DNA of 41,015 nt from Elusimicrobia bacterium LH_S2. GTDB lineage: Bacteria; CG03; SLGR01; JAGXOG01. Each line of letters opens with the position of its first letter. Position 1 is the stretch's first letter. A program made the position numbers and the translations under genes. Positions 8,232 to 38,700 of the stretch are shown piece after piece. Location: contig JAGXOG010000006.1 of NCBI GenBank assembly GCA_023660015.1, forward strand, positions 1 through 41,015, given 5' to 3'. The notes under the pieces are model-generated. The model had not been told where the DNA came from and ran no database searches. It saw only the letters and a list, made by a program, of their open reading frames with translations.

Positions 8232-9704
8232 ATGAATAAAAAAGCATTACAGGAATTTACGGTTTTCGGCACCCGGGTCGAGGTTTACCGCTCTTTAAAT
8301 TCAACGCAGAAGAGGGCCCGCCGGATTTTTGCCGATAAAAAAGAAGAAGCGCTTATTGTTTCTTCCGGCCAAACGGAAGGGGAGGGGCGCAGGGGCCGCC
8401 GCTGGCATTCACCCGAAGGCGGACTTTATTTTTCATTAATAATAAAGGATAATCCGGACAGTCTCTTGCCGGCAAGTATAAAGGCGCTGCTGGCCGCCCT
8501 GAAGGCCGCCGAAAAACAGGGAGTAGCAATGGAGTGGAAATGGCCCAATGACCTGATTTATGGCGGCAAAAAAAATGGTGGGATACTCTGCGAAAAGCCC
8601 GAGCCCGGCTGGATAATTGCGGGATTCGGTATAAATACCGGTATTAAGTTAAATGAATTGCCCGGCTCACTGCAGAATAGATCTGCAGTATGCGATATTA
8701 AAAGAGGCCGTTTTGTCAAAGATCTCATAGGACTATTTAAAAAATATATGCCGCTGGAAAAATTATCCGGGGAGATTAAAGAATATCTTGAAGAACGTCT
8801 GGTGCTTAAAGGGAAAAATATAATAGTAGGGTTATACGAAGGAGCGGTTCTGGGAGTAGAAAACGACGGAAGCATTAAGCTGGATGTGAATGGAGATATA
8901 AAAAAAATTTCTCACGGTTCTCCTGCGGTCTTAAATTCTCCGCCCAATATAGATAAAAATATAGTGGTAATTGATATCGGAAATAGTTCTGCCCGTATTG
9001 GTTATGCGGCGGGAGGAAATATTTTGAATGCGGCCGATATTGTCGTGGAGCCGGAAAAAACTTTTCCCGCCCGGCTCGTAAAACAAGCCCGAGAGCTTAT
9101 TGCCGGACGAAGCAAGCCGGATGCGGTGGGGTTAAGCTCGGTGACAGACCGGGTAAGAAAAAGTTCGATTAATAAGTTAGAGGTGGAATTTGACCTGAAA
9201 GTATCTGAAGTAAACAGGGATAACTGCGCGGGGCTGAATTTGGATATAAGTAAGGATACCGCAGTGGGCGCCGACAGACTGGCTAATGCCGTCGCTGTCC
9301 GTGATTATTACGGGGGTCCGGCGATAGTGGTGGATTTGGGAACAGCCAATACATTTGACGTCATTGACCCCATCGGTGTTTACTTGGGGGGAGTTATATC
9401 TCCGGGCATAGAATCAATGAAAGACGCCCTGGCGGCCCGGGCAGACAAACTCGGCAATTTTAAAAATAAAATTCCTGCTGCGGCAATAGGCAAAGATACG
9501 CTCTCTTGCCTTAATTCCGGTTTTTACTATACGCTCACCGGTCAGATAAATGAAATTCTCAGTCAATTGAAGAAAGAAATTGACGATAATTTTAAAATAA
9601 TATTTACCGGTGGCGGAATTAAGATGCTAGACAGAGAATACCTTCAGGATTTTATAGTTGACCCTGATATAACCCTAAAAGGCCTTGTCGCAATAACGGG
9701 ATAA
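8232..9704 (+). CDS. birA-coaX: Fused biotin-protein ligase / type III pantothenate kinase
   Basis: Two enzymes in one 490-residue chain. Residues of about 10-235 form a BirA-type ligase that attaches biotin to carrier proteins: the nucleotide loop GEGRRGRRW, KWPNDLIYGGKKNGGIL with the catalytic Lys, and an SH3-like C-terminal piece. The N-terminal DNA-binding wHTH of E. coli BirA is absent, so it should not be a repressor. From residue 241 a complete CoaX follows, the first step of CoA synthesis: DIGNSSARIG, the GADRLANA motif, DLGTANTFDVI and GGVISPG. BirA-CoaX fusions are known in a few bacteria such as Neisseria; I infer the same arrangement arose or was inherited here. It ends in a hairpin overlapping the groES promoter. 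Confidence 0.93.
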   Translation: MNKKALQEFTVFGTRVEVYRSLNSTQKRARRIFADKKEEALIVSSGQTEGEGRRGRRWHSPEGGLYFSLIIKDNPDSLLPASIKALLAALKAAEKQGVAMEWKWPNDLIYGGKKNGGILCEKPEPGWIIAGFGINTGIKLNELPGSLQNRSAVCDIKRGRFVKDLIGLFKKYMPLEKLSGEIKEYLEERLVLKGKNIIVGLYEGAVLGVENDGSIKLDVNGDIKKISHGSPAVLNSPPNIDKNIVVIDIGNSSARIGYAAGGNILNAADIVVEPEKTFPARLVKQARELIAGRSKPDAVGLSSVTDRVRKSSINKLEVEFDLKVSEVNRDNCAGLNLDISKDTAVGADRLANAVAVRDYYGGPAIVVDLGTANTFDVIDPIGVYLGGVISPGIESMKDALAARADKLGNFKNKIPAAAIGKDTLSCLNSGFYYTLTGQINEILSQLKKEIDDNFKIIFTGGGIKMLDREYLQDFIVDPDITLKGLVAITG

Positions 9705-19696: not shown

Positions 19697-19725
19697 TTGA
19701 CATTTCCTGGGCCTCTTTATATAAT
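19697..19725 (+). promoter_or_regulatory. Perfect-consensus sigma70 promoter for the amrB string
   Basis: TTGACA (19697-19702), exactly 17 bp, TATAAT (19720-19725). Both boxes are perfect, the strongest promoter in the window. It would start transcription near 19732. Confidence 0.85.
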
Positions 19726-19857: not shown

Positions 19858-20673
19858 ATGCTCAGAAAACCGCAGGTAGCCGGAAGTTTTTATCCCGATT
19901 ACCCAGAAGCTTTGAAAGAATCAGTAAAAAGTTTTATTGGCGAGCCGTCCCCCGCCCCGGCGGTAGGGATTATGGTTCCCCACGCAGGATATATCTATTC
20001 GGCAAAAACTGCAGGGCTTACTTATAGTAAGGTAAGAATTACCGATACGGTAATTCTTATAGGCCCCAACCATACCGGCCGCGGGAAAGCAGTAAGTGTG
20101 ATGAAAGAAGGCCGCTGGCAGATTCCCGGAGCCGAAATTGAAATTAATTCAGAGATTGCCGGTAAACTAATAAAGGAAAGTCAATTTGCCGAAGATGACG
20201 TTGAGGCCCATAGCGGCGGTTTTCCCCGGGGAGAACACTGCCTTGAAGTGCAGCTGCCGTTTCTTTATTTTTTAAATCCGGAAGTACGTATCGTTCCCGT
20301 GGTAATGGGAGTGCAGGATAAATACATTGTTGAAGACCTTGCCGACGCTGTCGTCGGGGCAATAAAAAAGAGTTCAAAAGAAATTCTTATTGTCGCTTCC
20401 TCTGATATGTCCCATTTTATAAGAGAGAGTAAAGCCCGAAGGAAAGATAAACTTGCCATAGATGAAATTATAAAACTTGATTACGCCGGCCTGCTTGATA
20501 CTGTCGATCAAAACGCGATAACTATGTGCGGCGCCGCTCCGGCAGCGGTTATGGTAAAGGCCTCTGCCGCCCTTGGCGGGAAAAAAGCCGAACTTATAGA
20601 TTACAGCACCAGCGCAGAAGTTACCGGAGACAGTTCTAATGTAGTAGGGTATGCGGGCATAACGGTGAGATAA
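19858..20673 (+). CDS. amrB: AmmeMemoRadiSam system protein B (Memo family)
   Basis: A 271-residue member of the Memo/Mho1 family, a fold related to extradiol dioxygenases. Family motifs are present: RKPQVAGSFYP at the start, VPHAGYIYSAKTAG with His42, GPNHTGRG, EHCLEVQLPFL, SSDMSHF and MCGAAPAAVM with the conserved Cys. In eukaryotes the homolog binds iron or copper; the bacterial role with AmrA and AmrS is not known. GGGAGG precedes the ATG. It opens a long run of same-strand genes under the perfect-consensus promoter. Confidence 0.93.
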   Translation: MLRKPQVAGSFYPDYPEALKESVKSFIGEPSPAPAVGIMVPHAGYIYSAKTAGLTYSKVRITDTVILIGPNHTGRGKAVSVMKEGRWQIPGAEIEINSEIAGKLIKESQFAEDDVEAHSGGFPRGEHCLEVQLPFLYFLNPEVRIVPVVMGVQDKYIVEDLADAVVGAIKKSSKEILIVASSDMSHFIRESKARRKDKLAIDEIIKLDYAGLLDTVDQNAITMCGAAPAAVMVKASAALGGKKAELIDYSTSAEVTGDSSNVVGYAGITVR

Positions 20674-20702
20674 TATTTTAGGAGATTTTTTTGGAGAATA
20701 AT

Positions 20703-21173
20703 ATGATAGGAATTATTGCAGATACACATGATAATCTGGATGCGATAAAAAAGGCTGTAGATTATTTTAATCGTATTGAGATAGGCCTTGTGTTGCACGC
20801 CGGGGATTATGTATCTCCGTTTACCGCAGATATATTTAAAAAGCTCAATGCACCCATGAAGGGTGTATACGGCAATAATGACGGAGATTTACCGGCCCTG
20901 GCCAGAAAGTATGAAGGGATAGCCGAGATTTCTTCCGGATGGTTGAAAATAGAAAGAGGGGGGAGAATAATCATACTTACCCATCTTCCCTTGCCCGAGC
21001 CACCGTCCGGCTGCGATTTATATATTTACGGACATACTCATCAATCTTTGATTGAAAACAGCGACAGTTGTCTTACTTTAAATCCCGGGGACTGTTCCGG
21101 GTGGGTTTCGAACCGGGCGACGGTGGCGACAGTGGATTTAGAAAAAAGAAAGGCAGAGATAATTGAAATCTAA
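20703..21173 (+). CDS. YfcE/MJ0936-type metallophosphodiesterase
   Basis: A calcineurin-like phosphoesterase of about 156 residues. The metal ligands are in IIADTHDN, HAGDYVSPF, YGNNDGD, the TH of the HLPLPEP region and YGHTHQS; the fold fits small bacterial cyclic nucleotide or phosphodiester hydrolases. The ATG at 20703 has GGAG 6 nt upstream; a TTG at 20691, 12 nt earlier in frame, is a second choice. It overlaps the methyltransferase gene by 11 nt. The natural substrate is unknown. Confidence 0.9.
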   Translation: MIGIIADTHDNLDAIKKAVDYFNRIEIGLVLHAGDYVSPFTADIFKKLNAPMKGVYGNNDGDLPALARKYEGIAEISSGWLKIERGGRIIILTHLPLPEPPSGCDLYIYGHTHQSLIENSDSCLTLNPGDCSGWVSNRATVATVDLEKRKAEIIEI

Positions 21174-22011
21174 AAAGAAAGTTGACTGGGGTTTAAAGTT
21201 TTTTCACGATGTGCTAAATCTGGACAGCTTTCACCTGGGGTTCTGGGAAGAAGACGACCCTTTTACATTGGAAGGGGCTCGTACTGCCCAGGCCCGATAT
21301 ACAAAAGAATTAATAAGTATGATACCGGGGGAAGTTCGCAACGTGCTTGATGCCGGCTGCGGAACCGGAGTGACGGCAAAAGAATTAACGGATCGCGGAT
21401 TCCATACAGTCTGTCTTAATCCTGACCGGTACCAGGAAGATTTATTTAAGGCAAAATTTGCCGACACTATAGAATTTCACAAGGTAAAGTTTGAAGATTA
21501 CATTCCGGAAAATAAAAAAACAAAATACGGACTTATCCTGATGTCCGAAAGTTCACAGTATATGGATACGGAAAAAATGCTGACAAAAGCCGCCAGGCTT
21601 TTAAAATCAGGCGGGTATCTTTTAATTGCGGATTATTTCAGGAAAACAGATACAGAATTTTATAAGACCTGTAAGATAAAAGATGAATTTTTGAACCGGA
21701 TTAAAAAAGCAGGTTTTGAGCTTATAAATAAGAGAAATATAACTGAAAATGTAATACCAAATTTTACCCTGGGCAAGGATATATATTTTAATTACGGTCT
21801 TCCCGTGATTGAGATAATTGCAGGCTACGCCCGTCAAGAAAAGCCGGTGCTGACTTCAATAGTAAAATGGCTTTTCTCATCCGAGTTAAAAAAAGTAAAC
21901 CATTATCTTCACAGCCACACAGAGGAAAAGTTAGACGAAGATAAATTTATGAATAATATGGAGTATCTATTTCTTTTATATGAAAATAAAAAAGGAGGTT
22001 CCCAAAATTAA
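21163..22011 (+). CDS. Class I SAM-dependent methyltransferase
   Basis: A 282-residue Rossmann methyltransferase. Motif I is [15 protein letters not shown], then acidic motif II (CLNPD), and a post-I stretch with [11 protein letters not shown] near residue 125. The N-terminal [23 protein letters not shown] is like the methyltransferases acting on small-molecule or quinone-like substrates, but no substrate can be named. TTG start, overlapping the phosphodiesterase end; the stop TAA overlaps the ATT proposed as start of the next gene (ATTAA). Confidence 0.85.
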
Positions 22012-22420
22012 AGCCCACACTTATTACCATACCTTTAATACAGAAAACAAAAGAGAATATATAAATATGACCGATATAGTCCGCCGGCAACTGAAAGAAA
22101 GCGGTATTACCGAAGGAATGATGCTGGTCTCTGCCATGCATATAACTGCCTCGGTATATGTCAATGACGCCGAATCCGGGCTCATAGAGGATATTGATAA
22201 TTGGCTCCAAAAACTTGCTCCGGAAGGCCCGGATTATAATCATCACAGGACAGGGGAAGTAAATGGTGATGCTCACCTAAAAAATCTATTAATGCATAAC
22301 CAGACAGTCCTTCCGGTAACCGGAGGCCGCCTTGACCTCGGGCCCTGGCAACAGATTTATTACGCTGAATTTGACGGCCAGAGACCCAAAAAAGTTATTA
22401 TTAAAATTATCGGAGAATAA
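22007..22420 (+). CDS. yjbQ: YjbQ/UPF0047 family protein (second copy), AUU start proposed
   Basis: A 137-residue UPF0047 protein with [17 protein letters not shown] at the start, the usual family opening, the paired HH of [18 protein letters not shown] and [20 protein letters not shown]. It is closer to the classical YjbQ than the copy at 4246. The in-frame ATG at 21980 lies inside the methyltransferase gene and lacks a ribosome site, whereas AAAGGAGG (21991-21998) is 8 nt before the in-frame ATT at 22007, exactly where family members begin. I therefore place the start at ATT. The ATTAA overlap with the upstream stop suggests coupling. Confidence 0.85.
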
Positions 22421-22439
22421 TTTATCGGAAAAAACAATA

Positions 22440-24050
22440 ATGATAAAAGGGCTTAAAGCGGTAAGTTATACAGCAGCGGTTATTTTGGCCTTAATATTTT
22501 TACCCTCCTGCCGAGATAAACCGGGCGGTATTAAAAAATCGCAAGGCAGTATGATAGTCAGGGGTTCCATAGGGGATGCGACTTATCTTAACCCCGTACT
22601 TTCGGCCGACTCGTCGTCTTCGGATATAAACGGCCTGGTTTTTAACGGGCTTGTAAAATATAATAAAGACCTGCAGTTGGTCGGAGACCTTGCAAAGGAT
22701 TTTTCGGTATCGGCTGATAACCTGAAGATAACTTTTAATTTGAGGGAAGGAGTAAAATGGCATGACGGTCGGGAGTTTACTTCCGCCGATGTAATCTTTA
22801 CCTATAACGCTATAACCAGTACTTCCACCCGTACTCCCCATTCAAGTAATTTTGATAAGGTGAAAAAAGTTACCGCTCCCGGGCCGTATAGAGTAATTGT
22901 GGAATATGTAGAACCTTATGCGCCGGCGCTGGAAAGCTGGGGCATGGGTATAATTCCCGAACATCTTTACCGGGGAAGCGATATAAATAATAATCCGCAC
23001 AACAGAAATCCGGTGGGTACCGGGCCTTACAAGTTTATTAACTGGCGAACAGATGACCGTATAGTTCTTGAAGCCTTCGACAAATATTTTGAGGGGCGTC
23101 CTAATATAGGGCGGTTTGTCTATAAGATTATTCCCGACCAGTCCGTGCAGTTCATGGAGCTCAGGAGGGGGACCATAGATTGGATGTCTCCTACCCCGGA
23201 CCAGTGGGTAGCGGAGACTTCCGGGCAGGAGTTTGGCAGCAAATTTAACCGGTTCCGGTATCCGTCGTTCGGGTTTACTTATATGGCTTATAATCTTGAT
23301 AATTCTCTCTTTAAATCAGAGAAAGTGCGCAGAGCCATAAGTTACGCAGTGGATAAAAAGAAAATGATAGATTCCGTGCTGCAGGGCCTGGGCACTGTAG
23401 CTACCGGCCCTTATCCGCCGGTCTCCTGGGCTTACGATGAGGGAATTAAAGATTACGGTTATAATCTCCGGGAGGCTAAGCGGTTTTTGCGGGAGGCCGG
23501 ATGGGAGAAAGATAAGGCCGGCGGAATCTTAACTAAGGACGGCCGGAAATTCAGATTTACCCTTATGACCAACCAGGGCAATGAAACAAGGAAGTTGGCC
23601 GCTGAAATAATACAGGCGCAACTAAAAGATATAGGTATAGATGTAAACGTCAGGATACAGGAATGGAGTTCTTTTATAAACCAGTACATAGATAAGCGGC
23701 AGTTTGATGCTGTCCTTTTAGGCTGGAGCCTGTCGGTGGATCCCGACCAGTATCCGCTCTGGCATTCCTCGCAGGTCGCAGAAGGGCAATATAATTTTAC
23801 GGGTTTTAATGATAGAAGAGTTGATAAACTGTTGGAAGAGGGACGCCGTACATTTGATTTTAAGAAGAGGAAGGAGATATATAAAAATATACATAGGATA
23901 CTGCATAATAAACAACCGTATCTTTTCCTTTATTTCTCAGATGCAAAACACGTTATTGATAAAAGATTTAAAAATATTGAGTCGGCAAAAGCAGGGATAA
24001 GATATAATTTTACTAAGTGGTATGTTCCTGTGGAATTAAGGAAGTACTGA
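22440..24050 (+). CDS. Lipoprotein substrate-binding protein of peptide/nickel ABC transporter (SBP_bac_5)
   Basis: A 536-residue extracellular binding protein. It starts MIKGLKAVSY, has a hydrophobic signal and a lipobox LPSC with Cys24, then the SBP family 5 features: the LNPVLSADSSS opening, VKWHDGREFTSADVIFTYNAI and the GTGPYKF..W motif. The C-terminal half has VRRAISYAVDKKKMIDSVLQG and the AKRFLREAGW repeat region. DppA/OppA-type proteins bind peptides, nickel or sugars. No permease or ATPase genes are adjacent, so the rest of the transporter must lie elsewhere. An earlier in-frame TTG at 22332 lies inside yjbQ and is not the start. The stop overlaps the next gene by one base (TGATG). 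Confidence 0.93.
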   Translation: MIKGLKAVSYTAAVILALIFLPSCRDKPGGIKKSQGSMIVRGSIGDATYLNPVLSADSSSSDINGLVFNGLVKYNKDLQLVGDLAKDFSVSADNLKITFNLREGVKWHDGREFTSADVIFTYNAITSTSTRTPHSSNFDKVKKVTAPGPYRVIVEYVEPYAPALESWGMGIIPEHLYRGSDINNNPHNRNPVGTGPYKFINWRTDDRIVLEAFDKYFEGRPNIGRFVYKIIPDQSVQFMELRRGTIDWMSPTPDQWVAETSGQEFGSKFNRFRYPSFGFTYMAYNLDNSLFKSEKVRRAISYAVDKKKMIDSVLQGLGTVATGPYPPVSWAYDEGIKDYGYNLREAKRFLREAGWEKDKAGGILTKDGRKFRFTLMTNQGNETRKLAAEIIQAQLKDIGIDVNVRIQEWSSFINQYIDKRQFDAVLLGWSLSVDPDQYPLWHSSQVAEGQYNFTGFNDRRVDKLLEEGRRTFDFKKRKEIYKNIHRILHNKQPYLFLYFSDAKHVIDKRFKNIESAKAGIRYNFTKWYVPVELRKY

Positions 24051-24538
24051 TGGCCATTACTTATATAATAGACGGGTATAATCTTATAGAAACCCATAGA
24101 AAATATTTCCCCGGCAGTTTGCTGGCGGCCCGCGAAAAATTAATAGCTGAAATTAAAAAAAACCGGCCGGAAGGCGGAGCAAGAAATAAAGTAATTATTG
24201 TATTTGACGGCCAGCCGGGGATAACTTTTCCGCCGGTAAAAAATCTTGATGTAAAGTTTACCGCCGGCCGGGAAGCGGACTCTTTGATTGAAGACATCGT
24301 CAGAAAAGAGAGGAACCCGGCATCAATTATAGTCATTACCGATGACCGCCGTCTGGGTCGTTTTGTTAAAACGGACGGGGCAAAGGTGGAAGCTACCGCG
24401 AAGTTTATAAAAAAAATATTTAAAAAACGCAAGAGAAATAAAATGTACGGAACTGATTTTAAAGATGATATGAAACATGCCCAAAAGATCACTAAAGAAT
24501 TAAAAAAACAATGGGTAAAGAAAAATAAAATGGAGTAA
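24050..24538 (+). CDS. NYN/YacP-like PIN-fold ribonuclease
   Basis: A 162-residue NYN-domain protein of the YacP (DUF901) type. It opens with YIIDGYNLI, carrying the first metal-binding Asp, has IIVFDGQ, READSLIEDIV with the central acidic residues, and IIVITDDRRLGR. These acidic residues form a PIN-type nuclease site; YacP relatives (Rae1) cleave mRNA on ribosomes. The last 30 residues are very basic. The ATG overlaps the SBP stop. Its link to the phosphoglycerate genes downstream is only positional. Confidence 0.88.
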   Translation: MAITYIIDGYNLIETHRKYFPGSLLAAREKLIAEIKKNRPEGGARNKVIIVFDGQPGITFPPVKNLDVKFTAGREADSLIEDIVRKERNPASIIVITDDRRLGRFVKTDGAKVEATAKFIKKIFKKRKRNKMYGTDFKDDMKHAQKITKELKKQWVKKNKME

Positions 24539-24547
24539 TTATATATT

Positions 24548-25435
24548 ATGGCCCGAAAAAAATCAGTCCAGATAGTTGGTAAGGATTTTAGACTGCCGTT
24601 TTCAGTAGCTATTCTTACCGGCTCGTTGGAAACTATCGGTATTAAATATAGAAAAGCTTTCCAAATAGCCGACAGGATAGGAGAATATTTAGAAAAAAAA
24701 GCGTTCCACACTATAAGCAGAAATAAATTAAGAGGTCTGGTTTATAAACAGATAGAAAAAGATGTAAATAAAGTTACGGCAGATAAATATAAAAAATTTC
24801 GCAATATCATGCAGCTTAAAAAACCGCTGATAATTCTTTTGGGTGGATCTACCGGATCGGGCAAAAACACGGTCTCCGTTGATTTGGCTCGCCGTCTGGA
24901 TATAACATCGGTTATAACCACTGACTCGGTTCGGGAAGTTATGAGGACTATACTTTCTAAAAAGATATCCCCTTTGGTACATACCTCCTCCTATCTGGCA
25001 AAAGACAACCTGTGGATGCCCATAAGCAAAGATAAGGTGGGAAGCGTGGTTGCTTTCAGGGAGCAGGCCCTTAGGGTAAATGCAGGGATTGAAGGTATAA
25101 TTCAAAGAAGCATAAAGGAAAAGAGATCCCTGCTAATAAACGGTGTGCATATAATCCCGGATATAATAAATGAAGAAGCTTATAAGAAAGCGGACATAAT
25201 AAAAGTTTTTATCTATGTAAAAAAGAAAAAAGAACATAAAGAGCGATTCTATATGCGAGGCCGGTCCAGTGAGGACAGAAATGTTGAGCGTTACCTTAAT
25301 AATTTTAAACGGATAAGAAATATACAGAAATATATTGTTAAATCCGCCCGAAAAGAGGGTTATCCGTGCATAAATAACATGAAATCAAGTAAGACTGCCC
25401 AAAGGGTAGTGGACCATATAATAGAAAAACTCTAA
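24548..25435 (+). CDS. 2-phosphoglycerate kinase with ATP-cone
   Basis: It makes 2,3-bisphosphoglycerate from 2-phosphoglycerate and ATP. The N-terminal 90 residues are an ATP-cone-like regulatory domain (VGKDFRLPFS, TGSLETIGIKYRKAFQIADRI). The kinase domain starts with the P-loop GGSTGSGKNTVSVDLARRL, then TTDSVREVMR, which is the combination seen in the archaeal 2-phosphoglycerate kinase characterised from Methanothermus fervidus. The length (295) is close to that enzyme. It sits 31 nt before the CBS gene and is followed by a GpmI-like mutase and a cyclic diphosphoglycerate synthetase, which use and extend the same chemistry. Confidence 0.88.
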   Translation: MARKKSVQIVGKDFRLPFSVAILTGSLETIGIKYRKAFQIADRIGEYLEKKAFHTISRNKLRGLVYKQIEKDVNKVTADKYKKFRNIMQLKKPLIILLGGSTGSGKNTVSVDLARRLDITSVITTDSVREVMRTILSKKISPLVHTSSYLAKDNLWMPISKDKVGSVVAFREQALRVNAGIEGIIQRSIKEKRSLLINGVHIIPDIINEEAYKKADIIKVFIYVKKKKEHKERFYMRGRSSEDRNVERYLNNFKRIRNIQKYIVKSARKEGYPCINNMKSSKTAQRVVDHIIEKL

Positions 25436-25466
25436 AATTAATAAACGTTGCCAGTAAGGAGGTTGT

Positions 25467-25895
25467 ATGAAAGCAAGAGAAATTATGATAAAGGAAGTGA
25501 TATTCGCAAACGAGAACGATACTATAAGAAAGTTTATAAAGATGCTTAACGATAACCGTATTACCGGAGCCCCTGTTTTAAATGATGACGGGCAGCTGGT
25601 GGGGATAGTATCTGTAAAAGATATTATAAATGCGCTGGATAATCTCTTAAAAGTAAGACTAAGCGCCGAAGAAGTAAAGGATATCCGTGGAAAATTTAAC
25701 TGGGTAAGCGGAATCATGACTGAAAATGTTATGACCGTAAGCCCGGTTACGGAAGTTATAGACGTATTTAAACTCATGGTTCAAAAACATATCCACAGGG
25801 TGCCGGTAGTAAAAAAAGGCAAAGTGATAGGCATCATAAGCACTTCCGACGCCCATAACGCTATTATAAAGTATCTTTGGGAGGCAAAAAGATAA
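25467..25895 (+). CDS. CBS-domain pair protein
   Basis: A 142-residue protein with two CBS domains (about 7-60 and 86-137). The patterns VIFANENDTIRKFIKMLNDN, GAPVLNDDGQLVGIVSVKDI and VPVVKKGKVIGIISTSDA are typical. Tandem CBS pairs bind adenine nucleotides and often act as energy sensors for neighbouring enzymes. AAGGAGG precedes the ATG. It lies between the 2-phosphoglycerate kinase and GpmI genes and could tie their activity to ATP status, which is inference. The stop is overlapped by the next gene. Confidence 0.9.
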   Translation: MKAREIMIKEVIFANENDTIRKFIKMLNDNRITGAPVLNDDGQLVGIVSVKDIINALDNLLKVRLSAEEVKDIRGKFNWVSGIMTENVMTVSPVTEVIDVFKLMVQKHIHRVPVVKKGKVIGIISTSDAHNAIIKYLWEAKR

Positions 25896-27532
25896 CTACT
25901 GAAACTAAAAGTAGATATCCCGGGGTCCTGCTTATATTAGACGGTTGGGGACTTGGGGAGCAGAGAGATAATAACCCCATATATCTGGCAGATACCCCCT
26001 ATTTTGACAGCCTGGATTATCGAGCCATCGAAGCTGTAGGCCCTGTGGTAGGCATGCCGGAAGACGCCAAGGGCTCAACTGCGGTCGGACACGAAGTCAT
26101 CAGCGGTGTGGATTATATACATCCGATGAAAAGAATTCAAAAAGATATAAAAGAGAGGGTTTTTATAAATAACCTTACCGATACTGCATTTGAAGAGACC
26201 GCTGATAGAGGGGGAGCGCTTCATCTTATGGGACTGGTTTCCAATAATAAGGAACATTCCGATATCAGACATTTATATGCCTTGATGCGCCGCGCAGTAG
26301 ATAAGGGTATAAAAAAAATATATATTCATTTCTTTTCCGACGGGCGGGGAACGCCTCCGTTTTCTGCGGTAAGGTTTGCCGAAGACCTTATAGAAAAAGC
26401 AGAAACCATAGCGGGCAATACCGCTGATATTAAGATAGCGACAGTGGGAGGCCGGGATATAACTATGAATCGCTCGGTAGATTCTTTCCATAAATCCATA
26501 GCCGCCTACAGGGCAATTATAGACGCCGCCGGAGAAAGGGATAAAGATATCTTCACTGTTTTAAAAAAGGCCTACGATAGAGGGATAACCGACCAGTATA
26601 TAGATGTAACTGTCCTTGGGGATTACCGGGGCGCCTCTGATAACGATACTTTAATGCACTGGAATTTCCGCAAAGACCGGGCATGGATGCTTATGTATCT
26701 TCTGAGCGAGCCGGTAAAAAGAATCCGGAAAAAAGTTGAGTTGCCTGAATTTAAAAAGACCGCAAGCAGTACTCTAAATTACGACACGCTTAATTTTCTT
26801 ACCTTAATAGAGGTTTATAAAGATATTCCCTGCAAAGTGGTCTATCCGGATAAAAAACAGAAATATTCCATGGGCAGTGTCCTTGAGGAATTCGGATACA
26901 GACAGTACAGAATAAGCGGGGTAGATAAGGCCCATGCGGTTCTGCTTTTATCGGGAGGCAGCCGGATAAAACCGTTTAAAGGTGAAAAACGGATTACAAT
27001 ACAGCTCCCGGAAGAGATGAGAAAATACCGGGATGCTTACGATAAAAACAAGGGTGAAGAAGGATATAAACTCGACCCTTATGAAAAATATCCCAAATTA
27101 GAGTTAACCGAACTCACCCAAAAGATAATTAAAGTTGTAGAAAAAAGCAGGGGCAGAGAATTTATAATTGTAAATATTTCCAACGGCGATATGGTGGGCC
27201 ATACAGCCGGTCGGGATGCTTCCGTGAAGGCCGCCTCTGTTGTGGACCGTGCGCTGAAAAAAATCAGCCGGGCGGTAAAAGAAAAAGGAGGTACGCTTTT
27301 TGTCATCGCCGACCACGGTAACCTCGAAGTATTAAAGACCGAGGACGGCACCGCATCCACTTTCCATACAAAAAACAGAGTTCCATTTGCGGTGGTTTCA
27401 AAAGATAAAGTAAAACTTAAAGAAGGCGGATGCCTTAAAGATGTAGCCCCGACAATTCTTGCGATTATGGAGCCGGAAAAGAAAGATATTGTCGCGGAAA
27501 GATTTAATGGTAATATAATTACAGATGAATAA
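25877..27532 (+). CDS. gpmI: Divergent 2,3-bisphosphoglycerate-independent phosphoglycerate mutase
   Basis: A 551-residue alkaline-phosphatase-superfamily mutase. It begins VLLILDGWGLGEQ, and shows the VSNNKEHSDIRHL, HFFSDGRGTPP, NFRKDRA, NGDMVGHT and ADHGNLE segments that line the metal and substrate site of GpmI. Two sites differ: the usual GNSEVGH with catalytic Ser reads GSTAVGH, so Thr aligns with the nucleophile, and DGRDTPP reads DGRGTPP. It is about 40 residues longer than usual. The first TTG (25877) has no ribosome site, but GGGAGG (25879-25884) lies 7 nt before an in-frame ATA (25892) that overlaps the previous stop (ATAA). It probably interconverts 3- and 2-phosphoglycerate for the cyclic-diphosphoglycerate route. 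Confidence 0.85.
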   Translation: MGGKKITTETKSRYPGVLLILDGWGLGEQRDNNPIYLADTPYFDSLDYRAIEAVGPVVGMPEDAKGSTAVGHEVISGVDYIHPMKRIQKDIKERVFINNLTDTAFEETADRGGALHLMGLVSNNKEHSDIRHLYALMRRAVDKGIKKIYIHFFSDGRGTPPFSAVRFAEDLIEKAETIAGNTADIKIATVGGRDITMNRSVDSFHKSIAAYRAIIDAAGERDKDIFTVLKKAYDRGITDQYIDVTVLGDYRGASDNDTLMHWNFRKDRAWMLMYLLSEPVKRIRKKVELPEFKKTASSTLNYDTLNFLTLIEVYKDIPCKVVYPDKKQKYSMGSVLEEFGYRQYRISGVDKAHAVLLLSGGSRIKPFKGEKRITIQLPEEMRKYRDAYDKNKGEEGYKLDPYEKYPKLELTELTQKIIKVVEKSRGREFIIVNISNGDMVGHTAGRDASVKAASVVDRALKKISRAVKEKGGTLFVIADHGNLEVLKTEDGTASTFHTKNRVPFAVVSKDKVKLKEGGCLKDVAPTILAIMEPEKKDIVAERFNGNIITDE

Positions 27533-29030
27533 GAAAGCATTATTTTTAATAGACGGAGTGCATAAACCGGACAATACTGTTTTTTCCATAAAAGAACTCA
27601 GCCGCCGCTATGGGGTTAAGGTATCTGCTCTTTTATGGATAGGGGGCACAGAAAAAATAAAAAGCAGAGAGGATTTCAGCGCCATATTTAAAGAAGAGTT
27701 CAACAGGGAGGTCTATTACTGCGAAGAGAAAGCAGGAAAATCTTTTCCCGAGAAAGGGATAAGAAAAATTCTTCAAAAAGACAGTTTAATAAAGAAAGTA
27801 GTCCAGCTTTCCGGCGCACCTCAGATATTCAGGAAAAAAACCAACCGCTATGCTTCTGTAGCGGTCTCTTTAGGGGCAGAATATATTGCCGGGGGGACGG
27901 TATTTAAAGAATACCATGTAGATACTCGCCACCGGAAACCCACCGTCGGGTTATATGCAACCAACAAAAGGGTGGGAAAGACATCCTTCGGGTCATATAT
28001 TGGTAGCCTTATATGCGGAATAAGAGGGATAGCCACAAAATGGAAACCTGTAATAATTACCCATTCTCGTGGCGGCCCGCCTGACCCACCCCTTATTGAA
28101 GTATATAAACCTTCAGCGGATAAGCCGGCGCAGAAATTAACGAGGCTGGAACTTCTTACTTCCCGGTTTAAGCCCGAATATCTCCGCCGTCTTCTTGATT
28201 TCGGACTTCACGGCGCTTCGGATGTCTTTGAAGACGCACTCATTGTCTCGGCTTATCTCGATAGTTGGGAAGAATCACACAGAGAGGTTCCCTATATCTC
28301 CATGATAGGGTGCCGTCGGGCCGGAGCGGGATATTTCAACGAATTTGTAGTATCCAATGCGGATAAAGGCATTAAAAAAGCTAATAAATCAGAGGCGGAT
28401 ATCATTATACATGAGGGGTCGGGTGCCGAATATCCCCCGGTAGAAGTTGACGGCATAATATTTTTTATTCCCTCCGATGTGAATCTGGAACTCCTCGATG
28501 ATTTTCCGGGACTTGAAAAGTCGTTGCTCTTTATAGTAGCAAATTGCCAGCAAGAGACAGCCGCGCCCAAACGGATCTCAAAGATAAGAGATATTCTTAA
28601 AAGCCGGGCTCCGGAGACAGAGATTATCCTAACCCGGTTTGTCCCCGAGGTAGTTGCTGAAAATCCCGGACTGGAAGGTAAAAAAACGGCTTTCTTTACT
28701 ACCGCTCCCGGTTATATAGTGGATAAACTCTCCGGTTATATAGAAAAAACTTACGGCTGTATGGTCTTAGGGACTTTTAATAATTTGGATAGCGATAAAG
28801 ATATGAAAAGCGCCATAGATAAACTTGAAAAAGAAGGCGGTGTAGATAAATACCTCTTTGAAATAAAAGCCCGCGGTGTGGAAGGGGCGGGGTATGTAAC
28901 TAAAAAATATAACTCAGAGTACCTCTATATTAATAATATCCCCCAAACAGTGGACAAAGATTTTAAATCCCTGGAGAATAACAACGCGCTGGACAATGCA
29001 ATCATTAACGCAGTTAAAAAAATAAGCTAA
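27525..29030 (+). CDS. Cyclic 2,3-diphosphoglycerate synthetase
   Basis: A 501-residue homolog of the archaeal synthetase that closes 2,3-bisphosphoglycerate into cyclic 2,3-diphosphoglycerate with ATP. The N-terminus KALFLIDGVHKPD..ALLWIGGTEKI closely follows the archaeal enzyme as I recall it (LIDGEH.. and FIGGTEK), and a Walker-like ATNKRVGKTS lies near residue 152. It has an 8-nt overlap with gpmI and follows the 2-phosphoglycerate kinase gene, so all three steps from 3-phosphoglycerate to the cyclic compound lie together. The archaeal product is a thermoprotectant and phosphate store in methanogens; in bacteria I know of no characterised case. Family assignment is by recognised motifs, not by search. 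Confidence 0.8.
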   Translation: MNKKALFLIDGVHKPDNTVFSIKELSRRYGVKVSALLWIGGTEKIKSREDFSAIFKEEFNREVYYCEEKAGKSFPEKGIRKILQKDSLIKKVVQLSGAPQIFRKKTNRYASVAVSLGAEYIAGGTVFKEYHVDTRHRKPTVGLYATNKRVGKTSFGSYIGSLICGIRGIATKWKPVIITHSRGGPPDPPLIEVYKPSADKPAQKLTRLELLTSRFKPEYLRRLLDFGLHGASDVFEDALIVSAYLDSWEESHREVPYISMIGCRRAGAGYFNEFVVSNADKGIKKANKSEADIIIHEGSGAEYPPVEVDGIIFFIPSDVNLELLDDFPGLEKSLLFIVANCQQETAAPKRISKIRDILKSRAPETEIILTRFVPEVVAENPGLEGKKTAFFTTAPGYIVDKLSGYIEKTYGCMVLGTFNNLDSDKDMKSAIDKLEKEGGVDKYLFEIKARGVEGAGYVTKKYNSEYLYINNIPQTVDKDFKSLENNNALDNAIINAVKKIS

Positions 29031-29745: not shown

Positions 29746-32700
29746 ATGAATAGTTTTAATGCTGAAAATAAATATTATAAAAATGAAGCCGCCGGCGAGC
29801 TTCAATTATCCGAAAAAATCACCTCAGTCCTTTTTAACGTGGTGGCAGGAATATTTATCAGTTTTATTCTTCTTACTCTTATACCTGCGAAAGGGCATGC
29901 AAGAACATATAACACTTTGACGAACATTGACACTGATGTGACCAACAGCGGATGGGATACTTTTGATGAAGTTGTCTCTACACAAACAGTTACTACTGAC
30001 TGGGGAGTTAGTGCGTCAACAAATCTTTATGTGACATGGGACAGCGAAAAAATATATATCGGACTTCATGCTGGACTGGAATCTAAAAACGAAATTCTGA
30101 TTTATTTTGATATGGATTATCAAGCGACAGATTCAACGGGCGCGGCCAGTCTTGACGAGTTGACAGATAATACAGGTTCAATAGATAATACTGCCTCTTA
30201 CTGCGATGTCGATTGGACGGATACCGATTTCAAACCGGATTTCTGTATCGGCTGGTCAGCAGATGTTGATGACAATGTGGAGGGGGTGAGGGGTTGGGTC
30301 GGTTCAGGGGAAAATACGGAATTTTCAGGCACTTCATTTAGCGATTTCGGCTGGTATACCCCATATTCTATAAGTAATGATGGAGCAAACACGGGAGATT
30401 TTGAAGTTGTTCTTTGTTCAACTATGGTGTGGACGACCGCACCGGCTGACGCTAAAATCGCATTGCTTGTTGTTATAGCCAATGATGGGTCTTTATCAAA
30501 TCAGTTTCTTCCGCCCGGAACAAGCGGTTCGGACCTTACGCCCTATGTTGTTCAAGTTACAAACAGCGCGAGCGAGCTTTTTAATAAATGGAATCCCGCG
30601 AAAAATCTCCCGGGAAGAAATTCGGTTACTATCTCCGAGGTTTTTTATAACGATTCCGAAACGACCGATATAGATGACTGGGTTGAGTTGTATAATGCGG
30701 CGAATTACCCCGTTAATCTTGAAAACTGGATACTAAAAGCATGGGATGAAGCCAGAACTTCGACATACACAATGAAATTGCCAGATGTGAATATTTCTTC
30801 AGGTTCATGGATAACCGCTCATCCAAAGTCAGGCACAGACCGAACAAATTACTGGGGCATCAAACAAATTTTCAAAGGAAGTGATGAGGACTGGTTTGGC
30901 TCGGGCGCAGGTACTTGCGAGCTTTACGACTCAAGTTATACAATAACAGGTAAGAGTATTATTGATTTTTTTACGTGGGACTGCGATGGAACAGTTCCTT
31001 CTATTGATGTTGACACCAACGCTGTTACGGCAAATATATGGGTTGAAGATGATTTTTATGATGGGACAGGAACTTCAAACAGGTCAATTGAAAGAATTGA
31101 TAATTCATCTGAAACATACAAGAATGTGGCTCCGCTTTCATGTTTTTCCGAAGAAGATTTGAGCGGCGCTTCCGAAGCGGTTGACAACAACGGGGATGAT
31201 GGACCTACGGCATCAAAAATTCTGGGAGTTGTTACCACAGAAAGCGATTTTACAACCAATACGCAAGAAGTCATCGAAGGCGCGACAGTCTATTTTAAAA
31301 TAGATATGGATGGGGCTCAGGATAATGCGTCCTATAAGCAGGCAGTTATTTGCAAAGCAACATCAACAAGTGACCAAACTGGGATTTTTGTAACTGCAAG
31401 AGAAGACGGAATTAGTTCAAATGATTATCAAGGTCTGATAAAACTTACGCTTACTTCGCCTTCTACCAGCGCCATGGATGCTTTATGGGCTCCGTTAAAG
31501 GATACGGTTACAGTCCGCACCATTGTAGATGACGTCTATTATGATACGGTGACGGTAGTAGCGGGACCAAACACTGAGCCGGATGCTCCGTCAAAACTTG
31601 CGCAATACTCAGAGGACTGGACTGTATTAGATTGGGGCGACTGGACAAATTACAATGTAATAAGAGCAAGTTTTACATTATCTGATCCGGATACAGATGA
31701 GCAAATGCAGTTTAATATTCAGTTTTCAACATACAGTGATTTTTCGTTTTATTACATAAATTCGACCGCACCGGCTACGGCGACTCTCGATGAAGGAGCG
31801 ACAAATTTTCTGACAACAAGAGCAGTTGATCTTCTTCCTGAAGGAACCTGGTATTGGAGGGTTATGGCAACAGATGATGATGGTTTATCAAGTGCTTATG
31901 CTTCTTCGGATACAGCAAACGGTTATCATTTGAGAATTGATGTTTCAACACCGAACAATGTGGGCTGTTCAAAGCCGTTAAATAATTCATTTGACCTTGA
32001 GACGTCAACATCGCTTACAGCACTTACAGCAACAGATTCTTTAAGTGGTGTTTCTGATTATCAGTTTAACGCTTCCACGAGTTCATCCTTTGACGGAGGA
32101 GATGATATTGATTCCGGTTGGCAGACTGGAGTAACATACAGCCCATCGCTTGAAGGTAACACAACATATTACTGGCGGGTGAGAGTGAAGGATGTCGTGG
32201 GGAATATATCGGAATGGTGCGGTGACGCGGATACGGCTGGCTGGTGGAAATTCAAGACGATAAACAGTACGCCGGACGCTCCTACGAAATTAGGGCAGTA
32301 TTTAGAGGACTGGACAGAGTTGGAGTGGAGCACATGGACAAAGTATCAGCATATTAGAGCCACATTTACGCTAACCGACCCCGACAGAGACGATAAACTG
32401 AAATTTAATATAAAATTTTCTACACATTCGGATTTTTCATATTGTTATGTAAATTCCACTCAGCCATCCTCGGCAACGCTTGAGGAAGGCGCGACAAACT
32501 ATATAACAGCGCTTCTGCCTGAAGGAACATGGTACTGGAAAGTAAAAGCCGTTGACGCGGGGGGGCTTTCCGGTCTTTACGCCTCTTCGGATACGGCAAA
32601 CGGTTATCATTTGAGAATTGATACGCATACACCAACGAATGTGGGATGTTCTTCTCCTTCAGATGATGAAGAATGTATTGCTGTCAAGACATCTTTGGAT

Positions 32701-35700
32701 GCTCTAACAGCAAGTGATTCTTTAAGCGGTGTCTATCAGTATCAATTTGATATTTCGACTGCAACAACTTTTGATAAACCGGGTGACCAAACATCCGCCT
32801 GGCAATCGGGGAATTCATGGACTCCAGGAACACAGTTGAAAAACGACACAACTTATTACTGGCGGGTCAGGGTAAAGGATAAAGCCGAAAATATATCCGA
32901 ATGGTGCGGCAATGCTGACGAGTCCGGCTATCACAAATTTATAACGGAACTGCGGGGAATTGACGGGGACTCTTCCGATTGGACAGGAAGCCCGACGACA
33001 ATAGACAATACTTCTCAAATCAGTGACATAGAATGGATTTGGCGTGATAAGTCATGGGAGGAGAGGGAAGACAGCTCCAATGATGATGATGTTGATTTGA
33101 GGGAAGTAAGGATTTGTGCGGATTCAAATGCGGTCTATTTTCTCGTTGAATTTGCGGATATAACAGATACGCAGTATCCATATGTCGCTGTTGGAATAGA
33201 CACAGACACGGCAGATTCAGGAATGGACTGGGTTGCGGATGAGTCAGATGTGACAATGGGAGACGAATACGGCAGAGCAGAAGATAAATATCATAATCCG
33301 GAACAAAACATTATTGTCCATTACACAGACGCGGATTCTCTTGTCCAAATTGAGAAGGCAACAGGAGCATTTACTAATAACTGGTATGCCCCGGACACTT
33401 ACGGAGGGGGCGTATGTAATTTCAGCGATACAAATGATGTTGCGGAATTTAAAATCGCACGGGCTGATATCGGTCTTGATGGAGATAAATCCGCAAGATT
33501 TACGGTTTCTCTCTATGATAATTATGGCGACTGGGCAAACGATGCTAACACGACCACTGGTTATGATACCTGTGATGCTTTGGATGCAATGAGTATTGTC
33601 CGTATATCAACAGAAGACAATACTTATAATGACACTGATGATGATATGAGCGCCTGGGACGAGGATATTAGCGATGCCGATATTGATTTCTGGACAGAAC
33701 TGAGTTTTATATCAACGGGAATCGCCGGGAACAAAGAGCCAGAGGCGCCCACAACCGCGGATTCGCCTGCGGATGATTCTGCGATTTACGATCTCACGCC
33801 GACTCTTTCCTGGAGCGGAGCAACGGATGCCGATGGTGAAACGGATATAACTTCTTATAAACTGATAATAGATACAACTTCCACCGCAGATGCTCCTTAT
33901 ACTTATAAGGTAAATGTTGCGACATCTACTGAATTTACAATTCCTTCAAATCTTACACCTGATGTTACATATTACTGGTATGTTTATACAAGAGATAAAT
34001 CAGGTGATTGTTCGCCAAAATCAACGACATGGGAATTTTATGTTCATGGGAGAACAATTGACGGAGATATTTCCGATTGGGGGACAGAAACTGCTTTTAA
34101 GATAAATTCTTCAACTTTTAATGCTTCAAAGAACGAATTCATCTGGAGAGATAAACTTGGAAACGAAAGAACAGATTCTTCAAACCCTGATTGTAATTTT
34201 GATATTGATGAGGTAAGAGTTACGGCAAACGACACTTATATTTATTTTCTCTTCAAGTCATCGGATATCACAAACATTGATTATCCACATTTTGCTCTCT
34301 CGATTGACACAGACACGGATTTAACAGATGATTCTCTTGACTGGATTGATGATGAATCAGACGGCGCGGATTCAATGAAACTTGGAACAGATTACAATTC
34401 AAAAATAAGAGCAGAAAGGAATATAATAGTTTGTTCAAGTGAGAGTGCAAATACCCATATTTTTCTTTATGCAGATGATGGGACATCTTGGTATGATCCT
34501 TCTTCTGGTGATTGGGAAGCATATGCTTCAGATACAAATGAAGTTTTTGAAGTAAAAATTAATCGCTCAGATATTGTTCTTGAAGGAGAAAAAAAATTTA
34601 GATTTTCTTTAGAAAGTCCTGAAAATTTTGCAGGCGACCCGGAGACACTAGACACGACAGTGGACTATGATCCTGATGCTTTGGATGCAATGACGATTGT
34701 CCGTCTTTCAACAGGTTCAGGGGCAGGACAATATTACAACGATACTGCTAACGATATGAGTGCATGGGATGAAGAAATTTCAGATTCTGATATCGACTTT
34801 TGGTCTCAGATAAAAGTTTCAGAAGATGGAATTATTTCAAATAATTATCCTGACAAACCGATAAATCCTGATCCTGCTGATAATGGAAAATATTCTTCAG
34901 ATGTAAAACCAACATTATCCTGGGATGCTGCAACAGATCCTGATACAGGAGATTTTATAACATCATATTTAATTGAATTTGCAACTCATTCTGATTTAGG
35001 AGGAGATTTATCTCAAACAGATGAATATGGATATAGGATAAATATTGCTTCTTCGTCAAGCCCGTCGTGGACGATACCAGAAGATTTGAAAAATGACCTG
35101 ACTTATTACTGGAGAGTTTTCTCACGAGATGCCTGCGGAACTCTTTCTCCGGGTCCTGACATCTGGGCTGTAAAGGTTGATTCTGTGCCGCCTGCTTCAG
35201 TAACAAATTTATCTGCTTTAACAGGGACATCTCCCGGAGAAATTGACCTCACCTGGACTGCGCCGGGGGACAACAATTCAATTGACGCGCTCGATACGGG
35301 CAGTAAATTCAGACTTGAATACGCTTCTTGGACAACGGTTGTCTGGAGCACAGACACATCTGTTGGAGACGGATATTATGATGATATAGAGACAACGGTA
35401 AGTCCGGGTGTAAGTTCTTCTAAAACAATTGACTCGCTTTTGGAAGGGGTGACATATTATTTCAGGATATGGACAGCGGACGAAATTCCAAATTGGTCGG
35501 CCCTTTCAAATGCGGCAACCACTTATGCTTGTGTAAATCCGGTACCTTCGGCAGAAGCGCAGATGGTTTATTATTCCTCATCAACGGTTGCTGCAGATCA
35601 ACAGTTTCCGTCATTTAGAAACTGGACAGGGACGGAGTGGTCGGATGAGTTTTCGGCAGAAGGCGTAACTTCGACCGCGTCGGGATGGTATGTTCTGAAA

Positions 35701-38700
35701 AAAGCGCCGTCGAGAGACGAATGGATACTGGGAATTGAAGACGCCGACGGTCATCTGAATGTTCAGATTTACGACAACACGACAAAAACCTGGGGAAACA
35801 TAAAAGAACTTTCGACTTACGGAAGTTATGAAGACAGAAGATGGTTTGATATTGCCTATGGTCAGAGTTCGTCGAGTGCGGTTATTGTGTTCAAAAATCC
35901 CGATGTTACGGACGAAGTTCAGTGTGTTACATGGGACGGGTCTGTTTATTCGTCCGTTTACACCCTGACCTTGTCTACTCACGGAGCGGGGACAATCAAC
36001 TGGCTCCGTCTGGAAGCAAAACCGAGTTCCGACGAGATGATTTTAGGGATTCAGGATGATTCGTCAGATATTTCATTTCATGTTATGGACGGGACTTCCG
36101 TGGTGAGTGATTCAGGCATTGTCGCAGAATGGGCGACGGAGGGTACAGGAGTTCGATGTTTTGATATCGCATGGGAGCAGACAACGGGCAAGGGAATGGC
36201 TCTATGGGCGGGCGCCGATGCGGACAACTATTACAGAACATGGGACGGAAGTATCTGGAGTTCGTCGGCGACTGTCGATATGGGGGCGTTGGACATTTCT
36301 GTTTCAAATGGTTATTGGATTCGTCTTGCCGCCTGTCCGAATTCAAAAAATATTTTGATGGGAACGGTTGAAAGTTCAACGCTGGATTTGGATGCTGTCC
36401 TGTGGGACGGAACTTCATGGGGGAGTGATGTTGAATTAAACGCTGATTTGCCTGACTACGACGGACAGTATTATGACCTTGCGTGGGAGAGTTCTTCAGA
36501 AGACGGAATTGCCACCTATACTGTAAATACAGAGACCGCCGCATACAGAACTTATTCTGCGGGTTCATGGGGTAGTGAATTGCAAGCATCACCCATTGCC
36601 GACGGCGCTTATGTTAGATGGATGCGCCTTTCACCGGATGACGACTCAGATGAGATAATGCTTGTTCATTCCGATACCCACAGCGCCGTAAATGTCCAAA
36701 AATGGGACGGCTCCGCCTGGGGAAGCATAACTGAAGCAGAAGACAATTCTTTGTTAAATTATCAGTGTTTTGATGTTGCTTATCCGCTGAAATTAACGGT
36801 GCCGGACACAACCGCACCGGCGGCAATTTCGGATCTCACGGCAATTGCGGGTTCTGATGATGAAGAAATTGATTTGAGATGGACTGCTCCCGGAGACGAC
36901 GGAATGAGCGGGGATATTTCTGAAGGCGAGATAAAGATTCTTGCATCAACTTATAACATAACTTCCGCGAATTTTGACTCAATAACTGAAAACCCTTATT
37001 ACACATATTTAAGAGGCGGGGCGACAAGTTATTCAACGCAAGGGACAGAGCACACATACACAATGACAGGGCTTTATGCAGGCACGACTTATTATTTTGC
37101 AATAAAAGTAAGAGATGATGTTGAAAACTGGTCTTCGTGGTCTGATACGGCAAGTTCCTCAGATACAGTAGCCGCTCAGGATTTAGAGCCCAAAATAATT
37201 TTAGATCTCCAGGCAACTGCCGAATATAGCAAGATAACGCTCGACTGGAGCGAACCATCAGGAGAGCCAGACCTTGACTTTTATAAGTTTTACAGAGATT
37301 CAACAACAGCCACTCTCTGGGATGATGCTTACACTTTTAATGTTGACATAGGAAATGATTCTTATCAAGACTCAGGTCTTGAAAATGGTGTCACATATTA
37401 CTACAGATCTGAAACATTTGATTATGGCTCAGTAGGAGATGATCTTTACAGTATCGCTCTTTCAAGCGCTTATTCAAATGTTGTTTCCACCTGTCCTACT
37501 GCAACTCCGTCCGAAATTATAATTGTTTATTCATCCGGAACTTTAAATTACCCGTGGTTTAGAGAAATTGCTTCCGGAACAACTTACTGGGGGACTCAAC
37601 AGTCAGGAATTCCTCACATGAATTCGGAAATTCAGCATATAAGTGTGAAAGAAAATTCGATCGAAGATGAAGAAATTTTAATGGCTGGAATTAATGCCGA
37701 AACAGACGATTATGAAATTTGGGTTACAACCCGGATAGATGACAGCTGGGCAAATTCTGCGATTCAAATCGCTGATGCTCTTTCGACCGGTGGACCCGGT
37801 ATGGATGACTGCAGGGGTTTTGATCTTACTTATGAAGACCAGTCAGGTCTTGGCCTTGTTGCTTATACAAAAGAAACTGACGACACTCTTTATTACAGAA
37901 CCTGGGATGGTTCATCTTTTTCAGCCGAGGCATCAACAGCAGGTCTTCCGACAGGCGATTTGCTAACTCCCTACTGGATAAAAATGGCTCGTCGTCCCGG
38001 ATATGACGATATTGCTTTAATTTATCTTGCTTCTGATGGAACAGATAATGAAATAGGTACTTTAATCTGGGATGGAGCAAATAATAAGTTTTCCGAGCAG
38101 TTATTACTTGAAAATAGCGCTTCAAGTTTCAGTAAAGAAAGTTTAGATGTTTCTGCGATGAATGAGTCAAGGGATTTTATGTTTGTATGGGGCTCAGGGA
38201 CAGTTCTTGGCGTTACAAATCTTGAATCAAGAAGATGGGATGGGGACTTTTTAAGTGAAGTTTCTGTGGGGACAGGAGGAGATGCTCTTGATGATGTTCC
38301 GGAATTTTTATCTTTAAAATCTAACACAACAGACCAGTTAATGCTTGGAATAACAGATGCAGGTGCTGCTGTAAGTGCTATAAGATATGATGGTTCAAAC
38401 TGGGATAATTCCATTCACAGCTTTGATGCTGCTGCAAGAGATATTGACAATAAATATGTTGACATAGAATGGGAAGATGATGGAGATGGGAATTACTCTA
38501 TACTTGTTTTTGGAGATGGCGCAGATACTGACTGGGCTTACTGGGATGGTTCCGGGTGGACAGAATCAGGTGGTCTTTACGGAGATGAAAGCAACAGGGT
38601 GGAACTTACAAAACAACCCGATGGAAATATCTGGCTTTGTAATTATCTCAATACCGATGCAGTTTATAAAATGAGAAGATGGGACTCATCAGGTGATGTT

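Follow-up and report, generated by a model that had tools for sequence, protein, structure and literature searches.

A putative bacterial gene cassette for cyclic 2,3-diphosphoglycerate with an unusual mutase-like member

Introduction

Do bacteria carry a gene set for cyclic 2,3-diphosphoglycerate (cDPG)? The compound has been reported only in methanogens, where its level correlates with growth temperature (PMC10690619); cDPG and its synthetase are stated to be confined to hyperthermophilic methanogens (PMC10690619, PMC12136491), and the role of cDPG is also open for mesophilic methanogens (PMC2686161). No description of a cDPG route in bacteria, and no biochemical or metabolite report of one, was found in the open-licence literature. 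The question is raised by a 41,015-nucleotide stretch of Elusimicrobia bacterium LH_S2 (contig JAGXOG010000006.1; the window), in which an initial annotation had proposed adjacent genes for a 2-phosphoglycerate kinase (2PGK), a CBS pair, a GpmI-type phosphoglycerate mutase and a cDPG synthetase (cDPGS), together leading from 3-phosphoglycerate (3PG) through 2-phosphoglycerate (2PG) and 2,3-diphosphoglycerate (2,3-DPG) to cDPG. With a probability of roughly two in three, we read the locus as a bacterial cDPG cassette in which 2PGK and cDPGS make cDPG, the GpmI-like protein supplies 2PG and the CBS pair tunes the pathway.

Results

Layout of the locus

All four reading frames are present on one strand, with spacings of +31, -19 and -8 bases (Table 1); the GpmI-like frame is counted from a TTG, and its start codon is uncertain. 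Ten co-oriented genes (19858-29030) could plausibly form a single operon behind the promoter-like sequence at 19697. The YacP-like NYN gene has an equivalent position in four other genomes of the phylum (G001, G004, G005, G006); that of G002 lies at a contig end. Elsewhere in the window, one protein (8232-9704) joins a biotin/lipoate ligase domain to a type III pantothenate kinase, and a single 3409-aa frame (29746-39975) with repeated fibronectin-like segments probably encodes a secreted or surface protein.

Table 1 Features of the cassette and of permuted GpmI proteins. L and G numbers denote loci and genomes.
Feature	Position	Strand	Basis or remark
TTGACA-17-TATAAT, perfect sigma-70 consensus, possible promoter	19697..19725	+	ahead of ten co-oriented genes
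YacP-like NYN-domain protein, directly upstream of cassette	24017..24538	+	PF05991; conserved neighbour
2PGK homologue, 295 aa	24548..25435	+	PRK04220 full length; AlphaFold model; invariant residues
Walker A of 2PGK, GGSTGSGK, residues 99-106	24842..24865	+	alignment with bacterial and archaeal 2PGKs
Two CBS domains, 142 aa, presumed to sense adenylates	25467..25895	+	PF00571 twice; GxxSxxD motifs
GIVSVKD, CBS adenosyl-binding GxxSxxD motif	25602-25622	+	motif read in CBS half
GIISTSD, CBS adenosyl-binding GxxSxxD motif	25830-25850	+	motif read in CBS half
GpmI-type phosphoglycerate mutase homologue, 551 aa, divergent catalytic site	25877..27532	+	TIGR01307; collinear with PDB 1EJJ
Thr68 codon, replaces nucleophile Ser62 of the Bacillus stearothermophilus enzyme	26078..26080	+	alignment
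Gly158 codon, replaces substrate-binding Asp154	26348..26350	+	alignment; D154 role from PMC3886921
Divergent cDPGS homologue, 501 aa	27525..29030	+	8ORK/8ORU match; AlphaFold and Foldseek
Glu43-Lys44 = Methanothermus fervidus Glu45-Lys46, reach partner subunit's 2,3-DPG (PMC10690619)	27651..27656	+	alignment
P-loop ATNKRVGKT, residues 145-153 = M. fervidus GTGKRIGKT	27957..27983	+	K145, R146, K149, T150 kept; two first glycines replaced
Asp233 = Mg ligand Asp208	28221..28223	+	alignment
Glu446-Ile-Lys448 = Glu404 and Lys406	28860..28868	+	alignment
Permuted GpmI, Bacillota	L037:6376-7962, L038:5405-6985, L042:11232-12812		
Permuted GpmI, Thorarchaeota record	L073:4298-6004		overlaps cDPGS frame
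Permuted GpmI, further places	G057:C1, G055:C90, G113:C2, G116:C160		

The kinase homologue

The 24548 protein is matched from end to end by NCBIfam PRK04220 (293.7 bits, E 1.6e-87) and misses the curated equivalog cut-off of 343 bits, so that we class it as a homologue of 2PGK rather than an equivalog. Other bacterial 2PGKs adjoining cDPGS also stay below 343 (Aquicultor 323, Omnitrophota 299, Gemmatimonadota 340 bits); methanogen 2PGKs score 410-443 bits. An N-terminal ATP-cone-like helical part precedes a P-loop NMP-kinase-like domain, and the best PDB folds for the AlphaFold model (pLDDT 89.7) are NMP/adenylate kinases. Full-length homology, the P-loop and the residues invariant over 20 family members (G99, G100, G103, G105, D126, R129, P142, R187, H201, P204, H230) place the protein in the 2PGK family. 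As a separate observation, the Walker A lysine is present in bacterial 2PGKs and absent in those of methanogen loci L132, L133, L136, L138 and L139, where the P-loop reads GGASGVGTSS or GGASGVGSST.

The synthetase homologue

No Pfam or NCBIfam model matches the 27525 protein, and it had been considered that a profile search might assign it to a different P-loop family. Its best match is the M. fervidus cDPGS by sequence (PDB 8ORK/8ORU, E 1.3e-47, residues 3-484, nearly full length) as well as by predicted structure (AlphaFold pLDDT 86.4; Foldseek 8ORU E 5e-34, TM 0.70-0.75); PDB 9SXB is matched at E 8e-43, also nearly full length. Besides 8ORU and 8ORK, Foldseek gave no match below 1e-3, the next unrelated one lying at 3e-3. 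The protein is thus a family member by full-length homology and by the 8ORU fold, a novel N-terminal domain followed by a P-loop domain.

In the M. fervidus complex with 2,3-DPG and ADP, the reported residues are E45 and K46, contributed by the partner subunit, and K145, R146, K149, T150, D208, E305, T353, E404 and K406 (PMC10690619). The alignment retains 10 of the 11 in the window protein (E43, K44, K148, R149, K152, T153, D233, T393, E446, K448), among them all those for 2,3-DPG, Mg and charge (E45, K46, K145, R146, K149, T150, D208, K406). At the nucleotide site T353 and E404 are kept, the first P-loop Gly is Ala, the third position is Asn, and E305 is Gln342. Nucleotide binding could thus be altered, with the 2,3-DPG site apparently intact. 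The Gln was not accepted as proving a loss of function: the deposited cDPGS 9SXB likewise lacks Glu at this position. By alignment, then, neither the kinase homologue, with its family invariants, nor the synthetase homologue appears to lack the active-site residues whose absence would have spoken against the proposed activities.

The window cDPGS belongs to a very divergent subfamily (identity 26-32% outside its order) and, compared with other cDPGSs, has two insertions, each about 16-17 residues long. These insertions, the P-loop and E305 changes and a very long branch in the tree (below) would suit a shift of this clade to another product, as a cyclase or kinase for a related bisphosphorylated acid, whether or not 2PGK feeds it; we consider such a shift unlikely, as the residues described as touching 2,3-DPG or shielding its phosphates are retained and the partner 2PGK is of an ordinary bacterial type.

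The CBS pair

CBS domains bind adenylates in general. The 25467 protein contains PF00571 twice (E 3.2e-30), and a GxxSxxD motif in both halves fits adenylate binding. A CBS protein also occurs in the cassettes of loci L020, L017, L205 and L206; wherever a mutase was seen directly beside 2PGK and cDPGS (the window's order, G039/G186/G324, L020), the CBS gene is there too.

The mutase slot

Against TIGR01307 the 25877 protein scores 339.4 bits, above the curated cut-off of 330.65, and all metal ligands are present in alignment with 1EJJ (D12, D403, H407, D444, H445, H462). In each of the four copies in the clusters, Thr68 and Gly158 take the place of Ser62 and Asp154, two of nine substrate-touching GpmI residues (PMC3886921), and the protein is therefore not classed as a plain mutase; in the same four copies, N61-S62-E63 has become S-T-A. 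The control GpmIs (the B. stearothermophilus enzyme and 61 from sampled genomes) have E63 and D154 in 62/62 and S62 in 60/62, with Thr in one. The annotation as a GpmI-type enzyme thus holds for the family, whereas a plain 3PG-to-2PG mutase is made less probable by S62T, E63A and D154G, and with this altered catalytic site the first pathway step becomes uncertain.

Within the phylum, GpmI (PF06415) occurs in exactly four of 16 genomes, the four with cDPGS, and ApgM (PF10143) in 14 of the 16; among these are G001 and G005, each with a housekeeping ApgM away from the cassette. The two without ApgM are G000 (67% complete) and G004 (86% complete). The cassette GpmI therefore looks like an extra enzyme and not the glycolytic one.

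In cassettes of three other genera (G039, G186, G324) and of Omnitrophota L020, ApgM stands instead of GpmI, in the order 2PGK-cDPGS-ApgM-CBS (the CBS gene of G039 being cut by the contig end); judged from sequence, GpmI and ApgM are non-orthologous replacements of each other between cassettes. The nucleophile motif of these four ApgMs is GTDVGH, with Thr where 51 of 51 other aligned ApgMs have Ser, a weaker control than that for GpmI, as few of the 51 resemble the PRK04024 subfamily. G039 has two more ApgMs outside its cassette; the 2PGK within that cassette has a doubled ATP cone.

The GpmI-like protein may be no mutase: it may dephosphorylate 2,3-DPG or open cDPG and return carbon and phosphate to 3PG, which would close an adenylate-gated make-and-break cycle. 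The three substitutions shared by all cluster copies, the independent Ser-to-Thr change in ApgM and the separate ApgM of phylum members point this way; however, Thr nucleophiles serve mutases too, e.g., phosphopentomutase, the cassette GpmI and ApgM score above the curated mutase cut-offs (TIGR01307, PRK04024), and the metal ligands and other substrate residues of the GpmI-like protein are all retained. A cDPG hydrolase activity, described in Methanothermobacter (PMC1224877) and for which no gene was found in the literature consulted, lends this alternative further weight; we hold it possible, with a modest chance of being right.

Some GpmIs are circularly permuted, with the C-terminal half first and the N-terminal half (with GNSExGH) last (Table 1); no description of this arrangement was found in the open-licence literature. 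Asp154 is absent from all those examined. A general tie between loss of Asp154 and cDPGS, suggested by Bacillota and Thorarchaeota mutases near cDPGS, was rejected, because these mutases are permuted GpmIs and permuted ones in the absence of cDPGS lack Asp154 as well.

Distribution of the cassette

Four of the 16 phylum genomes encode cDPGS: that of the window, its sister species G001 (same genus), and G004 and G005 from two other families of the order; 2PGK is also found in G006, on a short contig. The order NYN-2PGK-CBS-GpmI-cDPGS lies on single contigs in G004 and G005, and in G001 2PGK-CBS-GpmI-cDPGS is split across two contigs. Genes for SBP, UPF0047, a methyltransferase and Memo precede the cassette as one run in the window, G004 and G005. 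The recurrence of the cassette across three families of the order shows that the arrangement is not a chance one.

A cDPGS profile scan of one genome per species gave 445 encoded relatives. The best 80 of these 445 comprise Methanobacteriota (49, many of them Methanobrevibacter), Actinomycetota (17), Bacillota (6) and Coatesbacteria (2), and also Gemmatimonadota, Omnitrophota, Cloacimonadota and one Thorarchaeota record; six named bacterial phyla are among them. Among the same best 80, 16/17 Actinomycetota loci have 2PGK next to cDPGS, as do those of Gemmatimonadota, Omnitrophota and Cloacimonadota, and 0/49 methanogen loci have it within the examined cDPGS flank. In Aquicultor-type Actinomycetota the cDPGS-2PGK pair is of the ordinary kind. 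A spread of 386 genomes held 12 full-length cDPGS matches. When 21 distinct genomes with cDPGS were searched whole (22 entries, of which G049 and G401 share a 39727-base contig), a clear 2PGK appeared in 15, including each of the five methanogens; none was found in four Bacillota genomes or G049/G401, and the Thorarchaeota record gave a weak match only (E 1.6e-9). A single-protein scan of genome contigs with the window cDPGS gave no matches, which, against 445 by profile, marks this type as rare and divergent. No cDPGS was found in viral contigs. Proteins of about 440 aa with weak profile matches (E 1e-5 to 1e-10) resemble the family in part only and were left out of the cDPGS count.

The gene set had been taken as essentially archaeal. 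Homologues of cDPGS and 2PGK are instead widespread in uncultivated bacteria, as judged by profile and alignment, and the published confinement to hyperthermophilic methanogens therefore fails at gene level.

In one Bacillota locus (L037:266-7965), a GntR-type regulator stands on one side of cDPGS and an ABC transporter (binding protein, permease, ATPase) on the other, with a permuted GpmI after the transporter; the genome has no 2PGK. This gene set looks like an uptake operon and may mean that the cell uses cDPG, or a related compound, from outside.

Origin and host temperature

The cDPGSs of the window's order group in a single clade (100/100) whose stem, about 7 changes per site long, sets it apart from all others; the tree is midpoint-rooted and, with so long a branch, its position is informative only as not nested in methanogens. 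The window 2PGK clade, less divergent than cDPGS, has the Omnitrophota 2PGK as its sister (100/99) and lies with bacteria, apart from methanogens. Recent transfer from archaea, for which phylogeny had been named as the check, appears unsupported, since both window proteins fall outside the methanogen clade. The 16S G+C of the same-order genome G005 is 53.9%, and IVYWREL over ten window proteins is about 0.40, which implies an optimum of about 42 C; 2PGK alone and the CBS protein alone are higher, at 0.44. These values suggest a mesophilic host, so that thermoprotection, one of the roles first proposed, becomes unlikely, and a regulated phosphate or energy store or an osmolyte fits better. A recently acquired methanogen pathway retained as thermoprotectant would agree with the known occurrence of cDPG in methanogens only and its rise with growth temperature there (PMC10690619); given both trees and the temperature signals, we regard it as highly improbable.

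Discussion

The enzyme families, the adjacency of the genes and the pathway logic first proposed for the locus are supported, the family matches being to PRK04220, PF00571, TIGR01307 and 8ORK/8ORU. The reading as a bacterial cDPG cassette is founded on homology, active-site conservation, predicted fold and conserved linkage; activities, direction, CBS ligand and physiological role are inferred. The 2PGK would convert 2PG and ATP to 2,3-DPG; closure of the phosphoanhydride ring by the cDPGS homologue would consume another ATP and yield cDPG together with ADP and Pi. As an extra enzyme specific to the cassette, the GpmI-like protein would most likely supply 2PG from 3PG, and the CBS pair would bind adenylates and tune the pathway to the energy state of the cell. 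In a mesophilic bacterium, cDPG would most likely store phosphate, carbon and anhydride energy or act as an osmolyte, as the counter-ion of potassium. This cassette reading is weakened by the cDPGS stem of about 7 changes per site, the changed P-loop glycines and E305, the 2PGK score below cut-off and the altered GpmI site.

More speculatively, and with rather low probability, the locus may be a phosphagen-like module: 2PGK and cDPGS would charge cDPG with two ATP, the CBS pair would gate, and a GpmI or ApgM relative would twice have been converted, with Ser to Thr, to discharge cDPG or 2,3-DPG.

If the bacterial enzymes work, cDPG would be far more widespread among microbes, its explanation as a thermoprotectant would be too narrow, and the role of cDPG in mesophiles would become testable. 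The parallel Ser-to-Thr change in two cassette-bound mutase families points to an uncharacterised enzymatic step. Non-thermophilic cDPGSs could also aid enzymatic production of the extremolyte cDPG.

Comparison with known systems

What appears new here is a bacterial four-part cDPG-type cassette with an unusual mutase-like member. With the cDPG pathway of M. fervidus, Methanopyrus and Methanothermobacter (8ORK, 8ORU) it shares two homologous enzymes, an equal predicted order of steps and nearly all ligand-contacting residues; it differs in that its genes adjoin within a single cassette, alongside a CBS pair and a mutase-like enzyme, unlike the methanogen loci without nearby 2PGK among the best 80 of 445, in that its cDPGS is only about 28-32% identical, and in its probably mesophilic host. 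The 2PGK-cDPGS-ApgM-CBS cassettes (G039, G186, G324, L020) have the same four functions, overlapping or adjacent genes and the Ser-to-Thr mutase nucleophile, but ApgM in place of GpmI and a cDPGS of ordinary type. With GpmI of known structure (1EJJ), the window protein is collinear and shares the metal ligands, R153, R185, R191, R261, R264, K336 and H123; it differs by S62T, E63A and D154G and is about 40 residues longer.
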